A stretch of 64,000 bases of DNA from Thermoanaerobacter kivui (GTDB lineage: Bacteria; Bacillota; Thermoanaerobacteria; Thermoanaerobacterales; Thermoanaerobacteraceae), in assembly GCF_000763575.1 (NCBI RefSeq), contig NZ_CP009170.1, positions 521,501-585,500 of the forward strand, given 5' to 3'. Position numbers and translations under genes: made by a program. This document shows positions 10,706 to 19,604 of the stretch, in pieces; the first letter of the stretch is position 1, and each line of letters begins with the position of its first letter. The notes below the pieces were generated by a model. That model made no database searches, had not been told where the DNA came from, and saw only the letters and a program-made list of their open reading frames with translations.

Positions 10706-10723
10706 AGCGGGTTTTTACCCGCT
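10706..10723. terminator. Bidirectional terminator between the remnant and the ABC-F gene
   Basis: AGCGGG/CCCGCT stem with AAAATTTT on one side and TTTATT on the other; it includes the ABC-F stop codon. Confidence 0.75.
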
Positions 10724-12607
10724 AAAATTTTCCCATTCCTCGTACATTTGTTCCAGTTTATTTTTAAGAGAATTGTATTCTTTTTGTATATCCACAATTT
10801 CTCCCGTTTTATAGATTTCAGCATCACACATTTTTTCTTCCAAGTATTTTATTCTTTCTTCAGCTTGATAAATTGAATTTTCAAGATTTTTGAGATATTC
10901 TTTTTGCTGTTTTAATTGCAATCTATTGAGCCTTTCTTTATACCTTTCGTTTTTTATTTGGGTTTTTGTCTTTTTGAGTGTCTCTTCTTGCTTTTCATTG
11001 AGCTGGTTCTTTTTTTCTATATAATAGCTGTAATTGCCCAAATATATTTCTACGCCATTTTGAGTCAATATCATCACTTTTGTAGCTATTTTGTCTATAA
11101 AATATCTGTCATGGGAGACAAACAATAAGGTTCCATTGTAGTCTGTTAGAGCTTCTTCTAAAACCTCTTTGGCTTTTAAGTCTAAGTGATTTGTTGGTTC
11201 ATCCATTAGCAAAAAATTTGCCTTTGAAAGTATGAGTTTTAGCAAAGAGAGTCTTGCTTTTTCACCACCGCTTAGTTTATCGATAGTTTTAAAGACGTCG
11301 TCTTCTCTAAACAAAAAGGAAGCCAACAAAGTTCTTACTTCTGTTTGGGTGAGATAAGGATTTTCATCCCATATTTCATCAATGACAGCTTTTTGCTCAT
11401 TTAAACTTTTAAATTCCTGTTCATAGTAACCTGTTATGACATTTGTGCCAAATTTAATTTCACCTTCAAAATTGTGAACTTCTCCTGCTATGATTTTGAG
11501 AAGAGAACTTTTTCCTACTCCGTTTGGACCTAAAAGGGCTATTTTTTCACCTTTTTTGACTTCAAAAGATACGTTAGAGAAAATTTGTCTGTCAAAGCTT
11601 AAAGACAAGTTTTTGACTGTCAACACATCATTTCCACTTTCCAAGTCAAAATCAAAGCGTAAATTAATTGAGGCTTTATTTATCACTGGTTTTTCGATTA
11701 TTTCCATTTTGTCTAATAGTTTTTGTTTGCTTTCTGCCATTCTTACGGATTTTTCACTTCGTTTGTTTTTTTGAATTTGTATAATAGATTTAATTCTTTT
11801 TATTTCTTTTTGCTGTTCCTCATAGGCTTTTAACTTTATTTCAGTTTCTGCTTTTTTCCTTTTTAGATATTCTGTATAGTTTCCCTCATAAACAGATAAA
11901 CGAGTATTTTCAATCTCAAATATTCTATTGACAATTTTGTCTAAAAAGTATCTGTCGTGGGATATAATCAAAATTGTTCCGTTATAAAATCTCAAATATT
12001 GTTCTAGCCATTCTATTGAATTTATGTCTAAGTGATTAGTAGGTTCGTCCAGCAGTAGGACGTCTGGATTTAAAAGAAGGGTCTTAGCCAGCATAAGACG
12101 GGTTTTTTGACCACCGCTTAATATCGATACAGGTGTATCAAATTGAGACACATCAAAGCCTAGACCGTTTAAAACGCCTCTTATTTTGCTTTCTGTTGAA
12201 TATCCCTCAAGTTCGTTGTATTTATCCATTAGGGAAGAATATTCTAAAAGAAGCTTGTCAAGAAGGTCTTTATCTTTTGTTTGAGATATCTTTTTTTCTA
12301 AAGATTTTATTTGATTGTCTAATTCAAATATTTCATAAAATACGGTCTTTACTTCTTCGTATATACTTTTTTCGCTGTCTATAACAGCGCTTTGTTCTAA
12401 ATATCCAATTTTATCTTTAGAGATTGAAATGGATCCACAATCAGCTTCCGTAATTCCTGCTAAAAGTTTAAAAAGTGTGGATTTTCCAGCACCATTTTCT
12501 CCAACTATTCCTACTCGATCTCCTTCGTTGACTATAAAAGAAACATTTTGTAAAATTATATCGATGCCGTAGCTTTTGGTTACATTGTTTACTGTTATAA
12601 TTGCCAT
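10715..12607 (-). CDS. ABC-F family ATPase (YdiF-like ribosome-associated protein)
   Basis: A 630-residue soluble protein with two ABC domains and no membrane spans. Walker A sequences GENGAGKST (first domain) and GPNGVGKSS (second), signatures LSGGQKTR and LSGGEKAR, Walker B LLLDEPTNHLD and LLMDEPTNHLD, a charged linker between the domains and a C-terminal coiled coil (about residues 540-630) define ABC-F. These proteins act in the ribosomal E site as translation factors or antibiotic-protection factors. In Bacillus subtilis ydiF also follows tsaD and precedes rex, so the neighbourhood is conserved although the strand is reversed here. Confidence 0.93.
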   Translation of the reverse strand: MAIITVNNVTKSYGIDIILQNVSFIVNEGDRVGIVGENGAGKSTLFKLLAGITEADCGSISISKDKIGYLEQSAVIDSEKSIYEEVKTVFYEIFELDNQIKSLEKKISQTKDKDLLDKLLLEYSSLMDKYNELEGYSTESKIRGVLNGLGFDVSQFDTPVSILSGGQKTRLMLAKTLLLNPDVLLLDEPTNHLDINSIEWLEQYLRFYNGTILIISHDRYFLDKIVNRIFEIENTRLSVYEGNYTEYLKRKKAETEIKLKAYEEQQKEIKRIKSIIQIQKNKRSEKSVRMAESKQKLLDKMEIIEKPVINKASINLRFDFDLESGNDVLTVKNLSLSFDRQIFSNVSFEVKKGEKIALLGPNGVGKSSLLKIIAGEVHNFEGEIKFGTNVITGYYEQEFKSLNEQKAVIDEIWDENPYLTQTEVRTLLASFLFREDDVFKTIDKLSGGEKARLSLLKLILSKANFLLMDEPTNHLDLKAKEVLEEALTDYNGTLLFVSHDRYFIDKIATKVMILTQNGVEIYLGNYSYYIEKKNQLNEKQEETLKKTKTQIKNERYKERLNRLQLKQQKEYLKNLENSIYQAEERIKYLEEKMCDAEIYKTGEIVDIQKEYNSLKNKLEQMYEEWENFSG

Positions 12608-14365: not shown

Positions 14366-14377
14366 GAGGTGAGGATA

Positions 14378-15052
14378 TTGAGCAAAAAAACCATAGTATC
14401 AATGGCTGTAATAAGAAGGCTTCCAAGGTACCACAGATATCTGGAGGAACTTCTTAAAAACGATGTAAAGCGGATATCTTCAAGGGAATTAAGTGAGAAA
14501 ATGGGAGTTACTGCCTCTCAGATCAGACAAGATTTAAGTAATTATGGTGGCTTTGGTCAACAAGGGTATGGATATAATGTCGAGGAACTTTACAATAGCC
14601 TGACGAAAATTTTAGGACTTGATAAGACATATAATACTATTATCATAGGGGCAGGGAATCTCGGGCAAGCGATTGCTAATTATACCAGATTTGAAAAGTC
14701 CGGTTTTAATTTAAAAGGGATTTTTGACATTAATCCACGGTTGTTTGGGCTTAAAATCAGGGATGTTGAAGTGATGGACGTAGAAACTGTAGAGGATTTT
14801 ATTGCTTGTAACAAAATCGACATTGGCATTTTGTGTATTCCTAAAGATAATGCTCAATATACTGCTGACAGATTAGTGAAGGCAGGAATTAAGGCGATAT
14901 GGAATTTTTCGCCTATAGATTTAAAAGTGCCTGATGACGTAATTTTAGAGAATGTCCATTTGAGTGATAGCTTATTCACTTTGTCTTACAGGTTAAATGA
15001 AGAGGAACTTTTTAAAAAGTTAAAAGGAGAGACTGTGAAAACAAATGGATAG
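14378..15052 (+). CDS. rex: Redox-sensing transcriptional repressor Rex
   Basis: A 224-residue regulator with an N-terminal winged helix (AVIRRLPRYHRYLEELL, SSRELSEKMGVTASQIRQDL) and a Rossmann domain (IIIGAGNLGQAIANY) that binds NADH/NAD+, then the C-terminal swapped helix. Rex senses NADH/NAD+ and represses fermentation and hydrogenase genes. TTG 14378 gives the usual MSKKT start and follows GAGGTGAGG; GTG 14369 is an in-frame alternative. Its promoter is bracketed by inverted repeats that could mediate autoregulation. Confidence 0.95.
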   Translation: MSKKTIVSMAVIRRLPRYHRYLEELLKNDVKRISSRELSEKMGVTASQIRQDLSNYGGFGQQGYGYNVEELYNSLTKILGLDKTYNTIIIGAGNLGQAIANYTRFEKSGFNLKGIFDINPRLFGLKIRDVEVMDVETVEDFIACNKIDIGILCIPKDNAQYTADRLVKAGIKAIWNFSPIDLKVPDDVILENVHLSDSLFTLSYRLNEEELFKKLKGETVKTNG

Positions 15053-15074
15053 GTTCTATCCGTTTATTTTTTTT
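15046..15074 (+). terminator. Terminator overlapping the rex stop codon
   Basis: GGATAG/CTATCC stem with a T-rich tail; the rex TAG is in the stem. Confidence 0.7.
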
Positions 15075-15078
15075 CTTT

Positions 15079-15096
15079 TTGGCATGAATTTTGCAC
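15079..15096 (+). promoter_or_regulatory. Putative sigma54 (-24/-12) promoter upstream of the agr-like operon
   Basis: TTGGCATGAATTTTGCAC matches the TGGCACG-N4-TTGCW consensus with one change. GG and GC are separated by exactly 10 bp. It points into the 15331-18369 locus. A near-identical copy occurs at 18497. Confidence 0.7.
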
Positions 15097-15264
15097 TTAA
15101 AATGTAGCAAAGAGGATATAAAATTTCAGAAGCATTTTTATGGGATTTGAAAATATCGCTGTGAAACACAAGAGGGCGTTTTTGTAATTACTAAGGTACA
15201 GCTGATGACTTCGAAAAAGTAGAAATTTTCAAAACCCCCTCTAAAGTTATTGATTTTATTTCAA

Positions 15265-15293
15265 TTGACATCCTAATTAATAAAAATTACAAT
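15265..15293 (+). promoter_or_regulatory. sigmaA promoter of the agr-like operon
   Basis: TTGACA (15265-15270), 17-bp spacer, TACAAT (15288-15293), about 38 bp before the first gene. Confidence 0.7.
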
Positions 15294-15330
15294 TATATTT
15301 GAAATTATGTAATGTAGAAGGGCGAGAAAA

Positions 15331-15789
15331 ATGGATAGGTTGACGAGTTGGGAAATCTTTTTGTTTTCAATGCCAGAGGCAGCAGTTATAATAAGTATTG
15401 CCTTTGGTTTAGCAGGAGTAAAGTTTCAAACAAAAAAAATTTTGTATATGAGCGTACTCACTGGAATCATATTGTATTTTATAAGGCCGTTAGTGAGCAG
15501 TTATATTGTAAATGTTATACTTTATATTGTGGTATTGGTGATTTTGTTTTCGGTGTTTAAAATAATGGACTTTTTTAAAATGATAATGAGCATCATTTTA
15601 GCCGTTTCCATTTACTTAATAATAGAATATCTAAATGTGACGGCAATTCAATTTTTATTTGACATAGACCCTGTAATTTTACTAAAAGATTATGTCATCC
15701 GATTTGTGTGTTTTTTACCGCAATTATTGTCTGCTATCTTGGTTTCTTTTGCTATACGCAAATATAAACTTTCTCTATTTATAGAGTGA
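15331..15789 (+). CDS. AgrC-sensor-like polytopic membrane protein without kinase domain
   Basis: A 152-residue, very hydrophobic protein with about five spans. Its beginning (SWEIFLFSMPEAAVIISIAF) resembles the start of the membrane sensor half of clostridial AgrC-type kinases, but no kinase domain follows. The GHKL kinase two genes downstream has only two spans, so this protein may be the detached peptide-sensing part of the receptor; that is inference. It is the first gene of the agr-like operon and lies 25 bp before the response regulator. Confidence 0.6.
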   Translation: MDRLTSWEIFLFSMPEAAVIISIAFGLAGVKFQTKKILYMSVLTGIILYFIRPLVSSYIVNVILYIVVLVILFSVFKIMDFFKMIMSIILAVSIYLIIEYLNVTAIQFLFDIDPVILLKDYVIRFVCFLPQLLSAILVSFAIRKYKLSLFIE

Positions 15790-15814
15790 TGCATTTACCG
15801 GGAGATGAATTTGT

Positions 15815-16525
15815 ATGCTCAGAATAGTTGTGGCAGAGGACGATATAAATTTTAGAAAAGAGCTTATAAAAATTCTTTTAACAATGGAAAGTGTAAATGT
15901 CGAATATTCTACAGGAGATGGAAATGACGCATTAGAGGCGTTAATTAAGATTAAGCCAGATGTTGCTATTTTAGATATAGGATTGCCGGGGCTTTCAGGT
16001 ATTGAGGTGGCGAAAAAGATTAGAGAATGCATGCCTTTTTTAGAGATAATTTTTATCACTTCTTTTGAAGAATACATAAAAGATGCTGTAAGGCTTTACG
16101 CTTCGGATTATATTGAGAAACCTCTTGATGAGAAAAGGTTGAGAGAAACTTTGGATAGGATAAAGAAAAAACTTTTGGAAGTAGAAAATGTCATCCCTTT
16201 TAAGACGGAAGATGGAGTAAAGCTTATCAATCCAAAGGAAATTTATTGTGTTCAAGCCAGTAAAAAAAGGAGTATAATTTATACACAAAGAGAAAAATTT
16301 TTGTGCGATTATTCTTTAAAAGAAATAGAAGAGTTAGTAGACGATAATATATTTTTTAGAACCAACCGATCTTTTTTAGTGAACCTCTTTAAAGTTGATT
16401 TGTTGAAAGACAACAACAGAACTTCTTTTGAAATACATTTTAAGGGTTCAAATCATAAGGCTTACCTCTCTAAAGAATTGTATGAAGAATTTAGAAGGAG
16501 AATAAAATCTATTTACAAATCCTAG
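15815..16525 (+). CDS. LytTR-family response regulator (AgrA-like)
   Basis: A 236-residue two-domain regulator. The receiver domain (about 1-120) has the acidic pair in VVAEDD, phospho-aspartate in DVAILDIGLPG (near 56) and the conserved Thr/Lys positions. The C-terminal LytTR DNA-binding domain (about 130-230) contains VQASKKRSIIYT and FFRTNRSFLVNL. It should be phosphorylated by the downstream GHKL kinase and bind tandem direct repeats; a matching pair lies before agrD (18144-18173). ATG 15815 follows CCGGGAGATG. Confidence 0.9.
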   Translation: MLRIVVAEDDINFRKELIKILLTMESVNVEYSTGDGNDALEALIKIKPDVAILDIGLPGLSGIEVAKKIRECMPFLEIIFITSFEEYIKDAVRLYASDYIEKPLDEKRLRETLDRIKKKLLEVENVIPFKTEDGVKLINPKEIYCVQASKKRSIIYTQREKFLCDYSLKEIEELVDDNIFFRTNRSFLVNLFKVDLLKDNNRTSFEIHFKGSNHKAYLSKELYEEFRRRIKSIYKS

Positions 16526-16544
16526 TTAGATTGGAAGAGGTTTT

Positions 16545-17408
16545 ATGTTTAAGGATAGTTACAAAAATGCAATGATGATTTATGTAGTGCAAATGGTATT
16601 GATAGTGATACTTGTAAATAACAATTTTATGAAAAATCTTGATGTATTTCAGCCAAAAAATCAAGAGCTGTTTAGGATTTTCATAGGAATTTTGATTTTT
16701 ATATTAAATGTGTTTTCTATTTTTGTGTTAAGAGACTTGTATGCCAAAAATAAAGAAGAACGCCAATTTTTAATAAATAGTATTAGATTTAAATACATAG
16801 AAGAACAAAATCGCATATACAGGCAAAATCATCATGATATTAAAAATCACTTGATAGTCATTTCTGAATTAGTCAAGGAAAAAAGATATAGTGAACTGGA
16901 GAATTATTTGTCTTCATATATAGAAGAAATTGATAAAAATTTAGTAACTATAAACACAGCCGTAAATGAAATTGATATATTACTTTATTCAAAGATAAAC
17001 AATGCTAAAAGCAAAGGTATTGAAGTGTATTTTAAATGCGATACACAAATCCAATGCCACAAAAAGCATGTGTTAAACCTTGTTTCAGTTTTGGGAAATT
17101 TAATAGACAATGCAATAGAGGCTTGTGATGAAATGGAAAAAGATAAGTACATAGCGATAGACATAAAAGAAGACCCCATAGATTACATATTTCACATAAA
17201 GAATAGATATGATTTTCAAAAAGATGTAGAACCATCCATCTTTTTTGAAGAAGGGTTTTCTACAAAAGAGGGTAGAGGAAGAGGAGAAGGATTGTATATT
17301 GTAAGAAATATAGTAGAAAAGTATCGCGGTGAAATAAAAGTAAAAACCCAAGGAGGTTATTTTGACGTTATTGTAGAAATTCCTAAATTTTCTCTGGAGG
17401 GCGATTGA
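16545..17408 (+). CDS. GHKL sensor histidine kinase (AgrC-like, short membrane part)
   Basis: A 287-residue kinase with two N-terminal spans (about 8-25 and 42-65), a dimerisation/phosphoacceptor helix containing NHHDIKNHLIVI (near 97) and a GHKL ATPase with N-box LGNLIDNAIEACDE (near 184) and G-box GRGEGLYIVRNIV (near 246). AgrC proteins usually have five to seven spans; here these are missing and may come from the separate membrane protein at the start of the operon. AGAGGTTTT is the ribosome site. Confidence 0.88.
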   Translation: MFKDSYKNAMMIYVVQMVLIVILVNNNFMKNLDVFQPKNQELFRIFIGILIFILNVFSIFVLRDLYAKNKEERQFLINSIRFKYIEEQNRIYRQNHHDIKNHLIVISELVKEKRYSELENYLSSYIEEIDKNLVTINTAVNEIDILLYSKINNAKSKGIEVYFKCDTQIQCHKKHVLNLVSVLGNLIDNAIEACDEMEKDKYIAIDIKEDPIDYIFHIKNRYDFQKDVEPSIFFEEGFSTKEGRGRGEGLYIVRNIVEKYRGEIKVKTQGGYFDVIVEIPKFSLEGD

Positions 17409-17409
17409 T

Positions 17410-17985
17410 ATTAATATTGAAAAGTTAGCTGAAAAATTGACCCAACGATTATTCAAAACTCAAAATTTGACGGATATTGAAATGGCAAAAATACAATATG
17501 GCATAAGCTTAATTTTAGGCGTGCTGATTGAATTTGTCTTAGTTTACACTGTCTCTTTAATATTAGGATTTGGTTTTTACACTGCAGTAATAATGATTTC
17601 AGCTCTTTTGTTGAGAATAAATACAGGCGGAGCTCATTGTTCTACTTATAATAGATGTATAACTTTTACAGCAATTTATTTTATACCTTTTTCTGCTTTA
17701 GCAAAATTTGTAGACATACATTTTCCTTTGACATTTAAATTTTTTGTGAGTCTATTGCTATATTTTATAGTTTTAGCGATAGTAAAAAATCATAAATTTT
17801 ATAAAATTGTAGTTTTCAGTTTTGTTCTTCTAAACATTTTGCTGTTTTTTATGGGCTCAATATTTGGCGTCAAAATGTTGTTTATGGTATCTATTGGTTT
17901 TATGCTGCAAGCTATAATGATAACTTCCTTTGGGGAAATGATGATAAGAATTGCTGATAATGTTATAAAAAAATTAGGAATATAA
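17410..17985 (+). CDS. agrB: AgrB-like peptide-processing membrane endopeptidase
   Basis: A membrane protein (about 191 aa) of the AgrB family, which cuts and cyclises the AgrD signal peptide. Catalytic His and Cys sit seven residues apart in TGGAHCSTYNRC, as in staphylococcal AgrB. The frame has no ATG, GTG or TTG before TTG 17437, which has no ribosome site and would remove the conserved start INIEKLAEKLTQRLF. GGAGG at 17396-17400 places initiation at ATT 17410 instead, so AUU initiation is likely. The kinase gene ends two bases before it. Confidence 0.85.
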   Translation: MNIEKLAEKLTQRLFKTQNLTDIEMAKIQYGISLILGVLIEFVLVYTVSLILGFGFYTAVIMISALLLRINTGGAHCSTYNRCITFTAIYFIPFSALAKFVDIHFPLTFKFFVSLLLYFIVLAIVKNHKFYKIVVFSFVLLNILLFFMGSIFGVKMLFMVSIGFMLQAIMITSFGEMMIRIADNVIKKLGI

Positions 17986-18143
17986 TTTTTTTGTCATTTT
18001 TATCATACTTTTTATGTAATTTAAGAAAAGAAATACATTTTAATACAAAAAATTAATGGGTATAAATATAAAAGAAGGAAAAAACTTCAAAATAAATGCT
18101 GTTTTTAGGATGTAATTTGGAAAAAATTAGGTGAAAAATGCAT

Positions 18144-18208
18144 TTTCGTTCCCAAAAATGACACTTTCGTTCCGAAATCCACACAAAGGGTTTTAAATGT
18201 TGTATAAT
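18144..18208 (+). promoter_or_regulatory. agrD promoter with 21-bp-spaced direct repeats (LytTR-type operator)
   Basis: TTTCGTTCC occurs at 18144-18152 and again at 18165-18173. The 9-bp repeats start 21 bp apart, two helix turns, the layout bound by AgrA/LytTR dimers. A good -10, TATAAT, lies at 18203-18208, but no recognisable -35 is present at 18180, as expected for an activator-dependent promoter. Confidence 0.75.
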
Positions 18209-18237
18209 TAGATAAAGATAAGTGGGAGGTGAATTTA

Positions 18238-18369
18238 ATGAAAAAGGTTCGTCCGATGTCAATATTAGGGACGGTGCTTACCTTTATAGGTACATTGGGG
18301 CTGGTGACTCCCGCTTGTATCGGTTGGTTTTATAAGCCCCAAGTGCCTGAGGTTTTGGCGAAAAAGTAA
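18238..18369 (+). CDS. agrD: AgrD-type cyclic peptide autoinducer precursor
   Basis: A 43-residue peptide with the three-part AgrD design: an N-terminal amphipathic/hydrophobic leader (MKKVRPMSILGTVLTF...), a core around TPACIGWF whose single cysteine would form the thiolactone, and an acidic/proline-rich tail YKPQVPEVLAKK matching the AgrB recognition tail. The exact ring end (F or Y) cannot be fixed from sequence. ATG 18238 follows GTGGGAGGTG. The gene stands 250 bp after agrB with its own promoter and direct-repeat operator. Confidence 0.9.
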   Translation: MKKVRPMSILGTVLTFIGTLGLVTPACIGWFYKPQVPEVLAKK

Positions 18370-18451
18370 TACCTCTCAAAGATTTTTCTACCCTTCCCTA
18401 GTAGGTTTCAACATTTCTCCTGAGTTTTTTACATGGATTTAAATTATTTTT

Positions 18452-18476
18452 GTGCCGGATAATCGGCACTTTTTTA
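18452..18476 (+). terminator. Terminator of agrD
   Basis: GTGCCG/CGGCAC stem, loop GATAAT, followed by six T and a further T-run. Confidence 0.9.
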
Positions 18477-18496
18477 TTTTAGCATTTAGAATTTTA

Positions 18497-18514
18497 TTGG
18501 CATGATTTTTGCAT
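18497..18514 (+). promoter_or_regulatory. Second putative sigma54 (-24/-12) promoter
   Basis: TTGGCATGATTTTTGCAT has GG and GC 10 bp apart and matches the element at 15079 in 16 of 18 positions. Transcription would run toward the P-loop/Asp23 gene and nfnAB. Confidence 0.7.
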
Positions 18515-18565
18515 AGAAAATGGATGTGATAAGGAAGGGTTATAAAAGCTTAAGGGGGGGTGGTG

Positions 18566-18595
18566 TTGACTTAAAAAGAGTAGGGAAGTTATAAT
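18566..18595 (+). promoter_or_regulatory. sigmaA promoter upstream of the P-loop/Asp23-nfnAB genes
   Basis: TTGACT (18566-18571), 18-bp spacer, TATAAT (18590-18595). The remaining ~175 bp to the gene are AT-rich with no other clear signal. Confidence 0.6.
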
Positions 18596-18773
18596 AAAAT
18601 TGAAGAGGGATAAGATAGGGGGTATATATTTGCCTACTTTTTTCAATAACGTATTGAAGTAGTACACATTTTTTGTGGTTGAAAAATTTGTATAAAGCCA
18701 TCTAATTAATACTGTAAAACAATTTAAAAAATTAATGGTGTGTCTTTTTTATATTTTTTTAGGGGGTAATCTG

Positions 18774-19604
18774 TTGAAAGTCTATTCTTTAGTTGGAGAG
18801 AGTGGTACAGGAAAAAGTCACCATGCCTCTTTTATTGCTGGCAAGTACGGGATTAGGTACATCATAGATGACGGTATTTTGATAAAAGGCAACAATATCA
18901 TAGCAGGGGTTTCTGCCAAAAAAGAGGCCACAAAAATTGCGGCGATAAAAAGGGCATTGTTTACTGACCCCAAACACGCAGAAGATGTAAAAAAAGCTAT
19001 TGAAGAAATGAAACCCGACAAAATCCTCATTATAGGTACTTCTGACAGAATGGTGGATGCGATAGCGGAAAAGCTGGGGCTTCCTCCTGTCAGTATAAGG
19101 ATATACATTAAAGATGTGGTACCGCCAAAACAAATTGAAATAGCTCGGGAAAAAAGACTTACGGAGGGGAAACACGTTATTCCTGTTCCCACATTTGAAG
19201 TTAAAAAGCAATTTTCAGGATATTTTTTAGACTCTCTGCGAATTTTTAGGAGAAATAAGGGTGGATATTTTGAAAAGACAATTGTAAGGCCTAATTACAG
19301 CTATTTAGGGAAATACACTATTTCTGAAAATGTCATAAATTCAATAGTAGCTTATGAGCTTATTTTATTTAATGAGGTTTACAGAGTTAATAGGGTTTTG
19401 ACAGAAAAAAGGCCTGAAGGAATAATTTTAAAAGTAGACGTTACAATAAAGTATGGGTACAAAATTATCCCTGTATTAAAAGAAGCTATGAAAAATATAA
19501 AAAAACAATTGGAGTATATGACGGCCTTAAATGTCCTACAAATGGATATTTATGTAAAAAATTTGTATATAGAAAAAACAAATACTAAAGAAAAGGGTAT
19601 GTGA
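18774..19604 (+). CDS. P-loop NTPase fused to an Asp23/Gls24-like domain
   Basis: A 276-residue protein starting with a Walker A motif (SLVGESGTGKSHHASF). The N-terminal half looks like a small nucleotide-binding domain (DKILIIGTSDRMVDAIAEKL). The C-terminal part, from about residue 185 (NSIVAYELILFNEVYRVNRV through EYMTALNVLQMDIYVKNLYI), resembles the Asp23/Gls24 envelope-stress domain. I do not know a characterised member and infer only nucleotide binding. TTG 18774 follows AGGGGG; an upstream ATG at 18735 lacks a ribosome site. It ends one base before nfnA. Confidence 0.7.
   Translation: MKVYSLVGESGTGKSHHASFIAGKYGIRYIIDDGILIKGNNIIAGVSAKKEATKIAAIKRALFTDPKHAEDVKKAIEEMKPDKILIIGTSDRMVDAIAEKLGLPPVSIRIYIKDVVPPKQIEIAREKRLTEGKHVIPVPTFEVKKQFSGYFLDSLRIFRRNKGGYFEKTIVRPNYSYLGKYTISENVINSIVAYELILFNEVYRVNRVLTEKRPEGIILKVDVTIKYGYKIIPVLKEAMKNIKKQLEYMTALNVLQMDIYVKNLYIEKTNTKEKGM

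Follow-up and report, generated by a model that had tools for sequence, protein, structure and literature searches.

What serves as the receptor in an agr-type peptide signalling locus whose histidine kinase carries only two membrane spans? This question is raised by an operon at positions 15331 to 18369 of the window, a 64,000-nucleotide stretch of Thermoanaerobacter kivui contig NZ_CP009170.1 (positions 521,501 to 585,500, forward strand). The genome analysed is complete (2.4 Mb), has its nearest named relatives in Thermoanaerobacter, and contains one AgrB, one AgrD, and one strong match to an AgrC-type kinase. The operon comprises, in order and all on the (+) strand, genes for a sensor, a LytTR regulator, a GHKL kinase, AgrB, and AgrD. 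The original prediction for this DNA had assigned a regulator, a kinase, AgrB, and AgrD to the locus, and both the open reading frames and the family matches agree with that assignment. It had also proposed that the kinase and a separate membrane protein at the operon head together form one receptor, a split AgrC. Judging from sequence comparisons, we consider it likely that the operon is a self-contained agr-type quorum-sensing circuit with a two-piece receptor, composed of the 152-residue sensor and the short GHKL kinase. This interpretation is supported by the homology of the two proteins to the halves of naturally fused kinases, the tiling of those halves in order, the recurrent switching between split and fused states, the operon linkage here and gene adjacency elsewhere, co-divergence of the sensor with the kinase, and the loss of the sensor along with AgrB and AgrD.

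Sensor and short kinase as counterparts of fused kinases

The stand-alone sensor subunit (15331..15789, + strand) is a protein of 152 residues with five transmembrane helices. The AlphaFold2 model was fairly confident (mean predicted local distance difference test [pLDDT], 80; predicted template modelling score, 0.77) and placed five long helices at residues 6-28, 34-54, 58-76, 81-110, and 121-144; charges between the helices predict an N-out/C-in topology. Conserved residues in the family alignment were S-x-P-E at positions 13-16, R52, E99, and P130. Searches with the sensor returned nothing from Pfam at E≤10 and only a chance-level match from NCBIfam. The open reading frame is not a chance one, because 9 of 10 Thermoanaerobacter genomes keep the gene (identity to the eight others, 69-89%) and a profile built from nine sensors found matches in 140 of 398 genomes of the phylum.

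The short GHKL histidine kinase (16545..17408, + strand; 287 residues; HATPase_c_5/GHKL, E 1.1e-19) has two transmembrane helices. Its AlphaFold2 model was weak (pLDDT 61) and contained two N-terminal helices (residues 5-24 and 37-67), as the original prediction had held; both ends of the protein are predicted to lie inside, again from the charges between helices, and the kinase part begins at about residue 82. The protein matched the NCBIfam AgrC profile NF046015 (E 1.7e-16, below the full-length cut-off) over positions 136-395 of 414 only, which places its GHKL-type kinase domain in the AgrC group. Because this match starts at position 136, the N-terminal sensor part is missing. Among solved structures, the kinase module of Staphylococcus aureus AgrC came closest to the fused kinases described below (E 2e-24). 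Both the profile and this nearest solved structure suggest that the kinase belongs with AgrC.

In the first search with the sensor, relatives were found in frames of ~150 residues and, additionally, in one frame of 471 residues, which encodes an entire kinase whose N-terminus is the sensor. Similarly, most open frames matched by the nine-sensor profile were ~150-215 residues long, and a smaller group measured ~440-496 residues. When a profile was built from seven free sensors only, all 19 fused kinases were recovered, each over residues 1-152 (E 3e-22 to 1.5e-8), which is the comparison with full-length N-termini that the original prediction had called for. The remainder of each fused kinase, from approximately residue 157-192 to near the end, was matched by a profile made from 53 short kinases, with E values of ~5e-64 or better; the short kinase corresponds to the part from about residue 166 on. 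When free sensors and fused proteins were compared profile to profile, the probability was 100%. The sensor family, as defined here, is therefore characterised by whole-length homology to residues 1-152 of the fused kinases with S-P-E, R52, E99, and P130, all of which the window protein displays. The fused kinases (434-478 residues; L092-L109) contain sensor and short kinase in matching order with no segment missing; since the two profiles tile the fused proteins, the sensor and the short kinase together correspond to one fused protein.

Gene arrangement was surveyed in 120 loci of ~4-15 kb. The first 80 were chiefly high-ranking hits, together with chosen tandem and fused loci, and the later 40 ranked lower, with their class split counted by eye, so that the following counts describe the sample and not true frequencies. 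A free sensor accompanied a short kinase in 67 loci, a GGDEF-HD-GYP protein in 17, and a larger HisKA kinase in 15; 18 loci were fused, and the remaining 3 (two of them close to the end of a contig) had no visible output enzyme. No separate sensor was found in any of the fused loci (0/18). The expectation that fused cases lack the separate gene thus holds by locus, and both forms can coexist in one genome at different loci (for example, in G120, where L078 is split and L104 is fused). In 48 of 52 cases where free sensor and short kinase occur together, the kinase start lay between -65 and +59 nucleotides from the sensor stop, and 28 of the pairs overlapped; the regulator lies between the two genes in the four exceptions, as it does in the window and in Thermoanaerobacter. 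In two related genomes (L054 and L120), the kinase was broken or parted from the sensor by inserted DNA, and the system is therefore sometimes lost. The two-piece AgrC-type receptor is widespread in clostridia, not rare. No description of such a receptor layout was found in the open-access literature; the layout (67 of 120 loci) is not peculiar to this genome.

Evolution of the split and fused forms and alternative explanations

A kinase-domain tree of 70 rows required 6 changes between the split and fused states (5-95% range over bootstrap trees, 6-6), compared with 17 expected when the labels were shuffled; at least 4 changes were forced by well-supported branches. The two forms thus interchanged at least 4 times, most likely 6 times. 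Such recurrent switching is the classical mark of two proteins that act as a unit.

The distribution of the genes bears on the role of the sensor as well. Seven genomes that we label Thermoanaerobacterium-like (this label, like Caldicellulosiruptor-like below, is inferred from kinship and gene content) contained a full-length kinase orthologue with 37-40% identity. Four loci from this group (L152-L155) showed an orthologous motB-rex locus with LytTR regulator and short kinase, and without sensor, AgrB, and AgrD; in the two that were read in detail (L152 and L153), a transporter gene occupies the place of the sensor. Given that sensor, AgrB, and AgrD were lost together while kinase and regulator stayed, the sensor appears to be tied to the peptide. 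In Caldicellulosiruptor-like genomes, a diverged five-helix protein of 168 residues precedes or overlaps a short GHKL kinase (L156, 3722-4228; L157, 5015-5521; L158, 3347-3853), and no AgrB was found in these genomes. The hhalign probability for this protein against the sensor family (82%) is only suggestive of homology, and the pair probably makes up a split receptor whose ligand is not an AgrD peptide.

Several observations weigh against a two-piece receptor of the AgrC type. In the Thermoanaerobacterium-like genomes, the kinase orthologue is present without sensor, AgrB, and AgrD, and the kinase can hence persist without the sensor. Moreover, the sensor has no detectable sequence similarity to the sensor half of staphylococcal AgrC: comparison with single AgrC sequences gave <1% by hhalign and nothing significant by hmmsearch, and the best NCBIfam AgrC match, seen in 2 of 32 sensors, had an E value of 0.26. 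The statement in the original prediction that the protein begins like an AgrC sensor consequently applies to the clostridial fused AgrC-type kinases, whereas no such resemblance could be detected for the staphylococcal protein. Because of this lack of detectable similarity, the designation AgrC-type rests on the kinase, the neighbouring genes, and the fused relatives; the clostridial and staphylococcal sensors could be one family or two families that took the same place. Co-divergence gives modest support to a closer tie of the sensor to the kinase than to AgrB. In 43 split operons, the partial r was 0.55 between sensor and kinase given AgrB and 0.24 between sensor and AgrB given kinase, but the 95% bootstrap interval for that difference (0.04 to 0.58) almost touches zero, and partial correlations within operons are weak evidence.

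Might the five-helix protein instead be a factor for peptide maturation or export that works with AgrB outside the receptor, its fusion to kinases being secondary? Of 37 genomes of the class, the 11 with AgrB are also the 11 with a recognisable sensor, a pattern that speaks for the two-piece receptor too; the sensor adjoins AgrB/AgrD even where no short kinase is adjacent, and its loss along with AgrB and AgrD in the Thermoanaerobacterium-like genomes would fit such a role. However, several independent fusions join the protein to the N-terminus of a kinase and none was seen to AgrB; four of the fused loci (L092, L102, L103, and L106) have a regulator but no AgrB/AgrD nearby; and where the short kinase is absent, another signalling enzyme usually adjoins the sensor. 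The probable pairing of diverged sensor and short kinase in the AgrB-less Caldicellulosiruptor-like genomes (loci read from three) and the co-divergence likewise favour the kinase as partner, and we regard a maturation factor as unlikely.

A different partnership is conceivable, in which the kinase senses the peptide through its own two helices, as do short-loop intramembrane-sensing kinases, and the free sensor is a modulator (a negative regulator, decoy, or co-receptor). A two-span kinase with an accessory membrane sensor is a known plan: BceS-type kinases are short, with two transmembrane helices and a tiny outer loop, and sense through a separate membrane protein, the BceAB transporter. 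The survival of the kinase orthologue without the sensor would also be understandable. Yet the peptide genes are gone from the same genomes, so that the kinase there is not reading this peptide, and in the fused relatives the sensor is the receptor's own N-terminal domain; a mere modulator is accordingly quite improbable. That the split arose from a once-fused gene by decay, or is an artefact of sequencing or of a frameshift in such a gene, strikes us as scarcely credible. Sensor and kinase frames do run in register across one stop codon in a few loci, such as L014, but both product lengths are conserved over many families in the 67 split loci, and kinase motifs are kept in six close relatives that were aligned. 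A frameshift artefact in the window itself is ruled out because the whole, intact regulator gene lies between the halves.

The operon and its relation to known systems

The two-piece receptor can be placed within the remainder of the operon. The AgrA-like, LytTR-family response regulator is encoded at 15815..16525 (+ strand; 236 residues; Response_reg, E 3.9e-20; LytTR, E 2e-19). The AgrB peptidase/exporter (17410..17985, + strand) matched PF04647 with an E value of 4e-20 and 72.4 bits, above the curated cut-off of 23, and its frame is open from the kinase stop. The N-terminus common to AgrB relatives has no ATG, GTG, or TTG in the window (17395-17440), and possible starts are an ATT near 17404-17410 after GGAGG or the TTG at 17437, giving a shorter protein. 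The AgrD autoinducing-peptide precursor (18238..18369, + strand; 43 residues) matched TIGR04223 (E 1.7e-6; 28 bits, curated cut-off 19), and its core region contains ...TPACIGWFYKPQVPEVL...; the ATG at 18238, which has a good ribosome-binding site, is the more likely start compared with the GTG at 18229. No ABC transporter gene was found in the operon among the open reading frames of 14369-19604, and an ABC-F-like protein at 10715-12607 is encoded on the strand opposite to the operon.

From the families present, AgrB would process AgrD into a cyclic autoinducing peptide, which the five-helix sensor may bind at its outer face. The sensor would pack in the membrane against the two transmembrane helices of the short kinase, the five plus two helices restoring the seven-helix membrane portion that a full-length AgrC-type kinase has. 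Sensor helices pressing on the kinase helices might then switch autophosphorylation, and the kinase would phosphorylate the LytTR regulator, which presumably acts on target genes. Since each half of a two-part receptor can be produced, exchanged, and titrated by itself, such a layout opens the division between peptide sensing and kinase control to direct testing.

The locus resembles the S. aureus-type AgrC system in having a GHKL/HPK10-type kinase, a LytTR regulator, AgrB, and AgrD in one operon, the setting of an AgrC-group receptor, and the helix count and order of the fused relatives (five plus two, then the kinase) are also like those of AgrC. It differs in gene order and in that the receptor here comprises two proteins; only the fused relatives combine a polytopic sensor and a kinase in one polypeptide. 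Structure searches with the fused kinases or the sensor brought up no solved membrane part of AgrC. The clostridial fused AgrC-type kinases share whole-length homology and the same order with the sensor and kinase of the window, but each is a single polypeptide and has no separate sensor gene at its locus. BceS structures were among the solved-structure matches to the fused kinases, and a BceS-type kinase offers a working analogy, with no shared ancestry claimed, as a short two-span kinase depending on a separate membrane partner; its partner, however, is an ABC transporter and not a five-helix sensor, BceS-type systems lack AgrB/AgrD, and no BceAB-like transporter neighbours the kinase in the window operon.

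In Clostridium perfringens, the AgrC-like kinase of VirS/VirR, with AgrB/AgrD, has been read as the receptor of an Agr-like peptide (PMC7492741), and the AgrC-like kinase RgaS has been read likewise in C. difficile (PMC10602386). Unlike the window kinase, both are described as single-chain kinases whose genes lie apart from agrBD, and single-chain receptors are what clostridial Agr papers describe (PMC10602386, PMC7492741, PMC8748961). No mention of split receptors turned up in the searched passages of a review of two-component quorum sensing (PMC8895600). The open-access full-text literature, which leaves most subscription journals outside its scope, yielded no report of a split AgrC and none of AgrB/AgrD coupled to a GGDEF-HD-GYP protein. 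Given that the sensor has no Pfam match and no meaningful NCBIfam match, annotation pipelines likely miss such receptors and call the loci incomplete.

Other output enzymes and viral relatives

The 17 loci in which one or more free sensors accompany AgrB, AgrD, and a membrane GGDEF-HD-GYP protein were L110, L111, L112, L114, L115, L116, L130, L164, L170, L176, L179, L181, L183, L185, L186, L189, and L193. The GGDEF-HD-GYP proteins are ~550-690 residues long and combine GGDEF with HD-GYP-type HD domains (PF00990, PF13487). The free sensor at these loci is sometimes a tandem pair; tandem pairs stand beside one AgrB and one AgrD in L110-L114. In the seven GGDEF-HD-GYP loci of the first set, the surroundings of the sensor showed no LytTR regulator. 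At the 15 HisKA loci, the kinases bear PAS or GAF domains, and some also have a receiver. Over these 32 loci together, AgrB and AgrD usually accompany the free sensor and its neighbouring enzyme. Many of the GGDEF-HD-GYP and HisKA outputs have in common an N-terminal membrane domain of ~180 residues, which in most reaches no Pfam cut-off; a profile from ten GGDEF proteins matched HisKA kinases with E values of 6e-31 to 3e-17. Carriers of this domain besides the GGDEF proteins are encoded in L169 (2555-4471), L166 (1241-3676), L192 (5238-7322), and L190 (5794-7479).

This ~180-residue domain could be a docking part for the sensor. On balance, we lean towards the view that clostridia use the five-helix protein as a general peptide-receptor subunit that can be exchanged between outputs, encoded free beside AgrB/AgrD and docking onto short GHKL kinases, PAS/GAF-HisKA (hybrid) kinases, and GGDEF-HD-GYP proteins. 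If so, gene neighbourhood suggests that cyclic autoinducing peptides would act on cyclic di-GMP directly, without a response regulator; the position of the sensor beside cyclic di-GMP enzymes suggests that clostridial peptide quorum sensing can bypass two-component signalling.

Structure comparisons with the sensor gave nothing convincing in the PDB (best Foldseek E value, 2.1; VIA-align Z ≤6, within helical-bundle noise), and no solved structure was found with sensor profile A3. Its best viral fold matches were two uncharacterised phage-labelled proteins of 158-165 residues (template modelling score 0.62-0.64; E 0.016 and 0.19), and a tblastn search of phage records with one sensor found none. 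When viral contigs were scanned with the fused-protein profile A2, matches fell mostly to the kinase domain. The 136-kb viral contig IMGVR_UViG_2839026242_000001 encodes at L138 2216-5789 a 230-residue free sensor, AgrB, AgrD, a LytTR-only protein, a LytTR regulator, and a separate 277-residue kinase, which is another split layout, carried on a mobile element.

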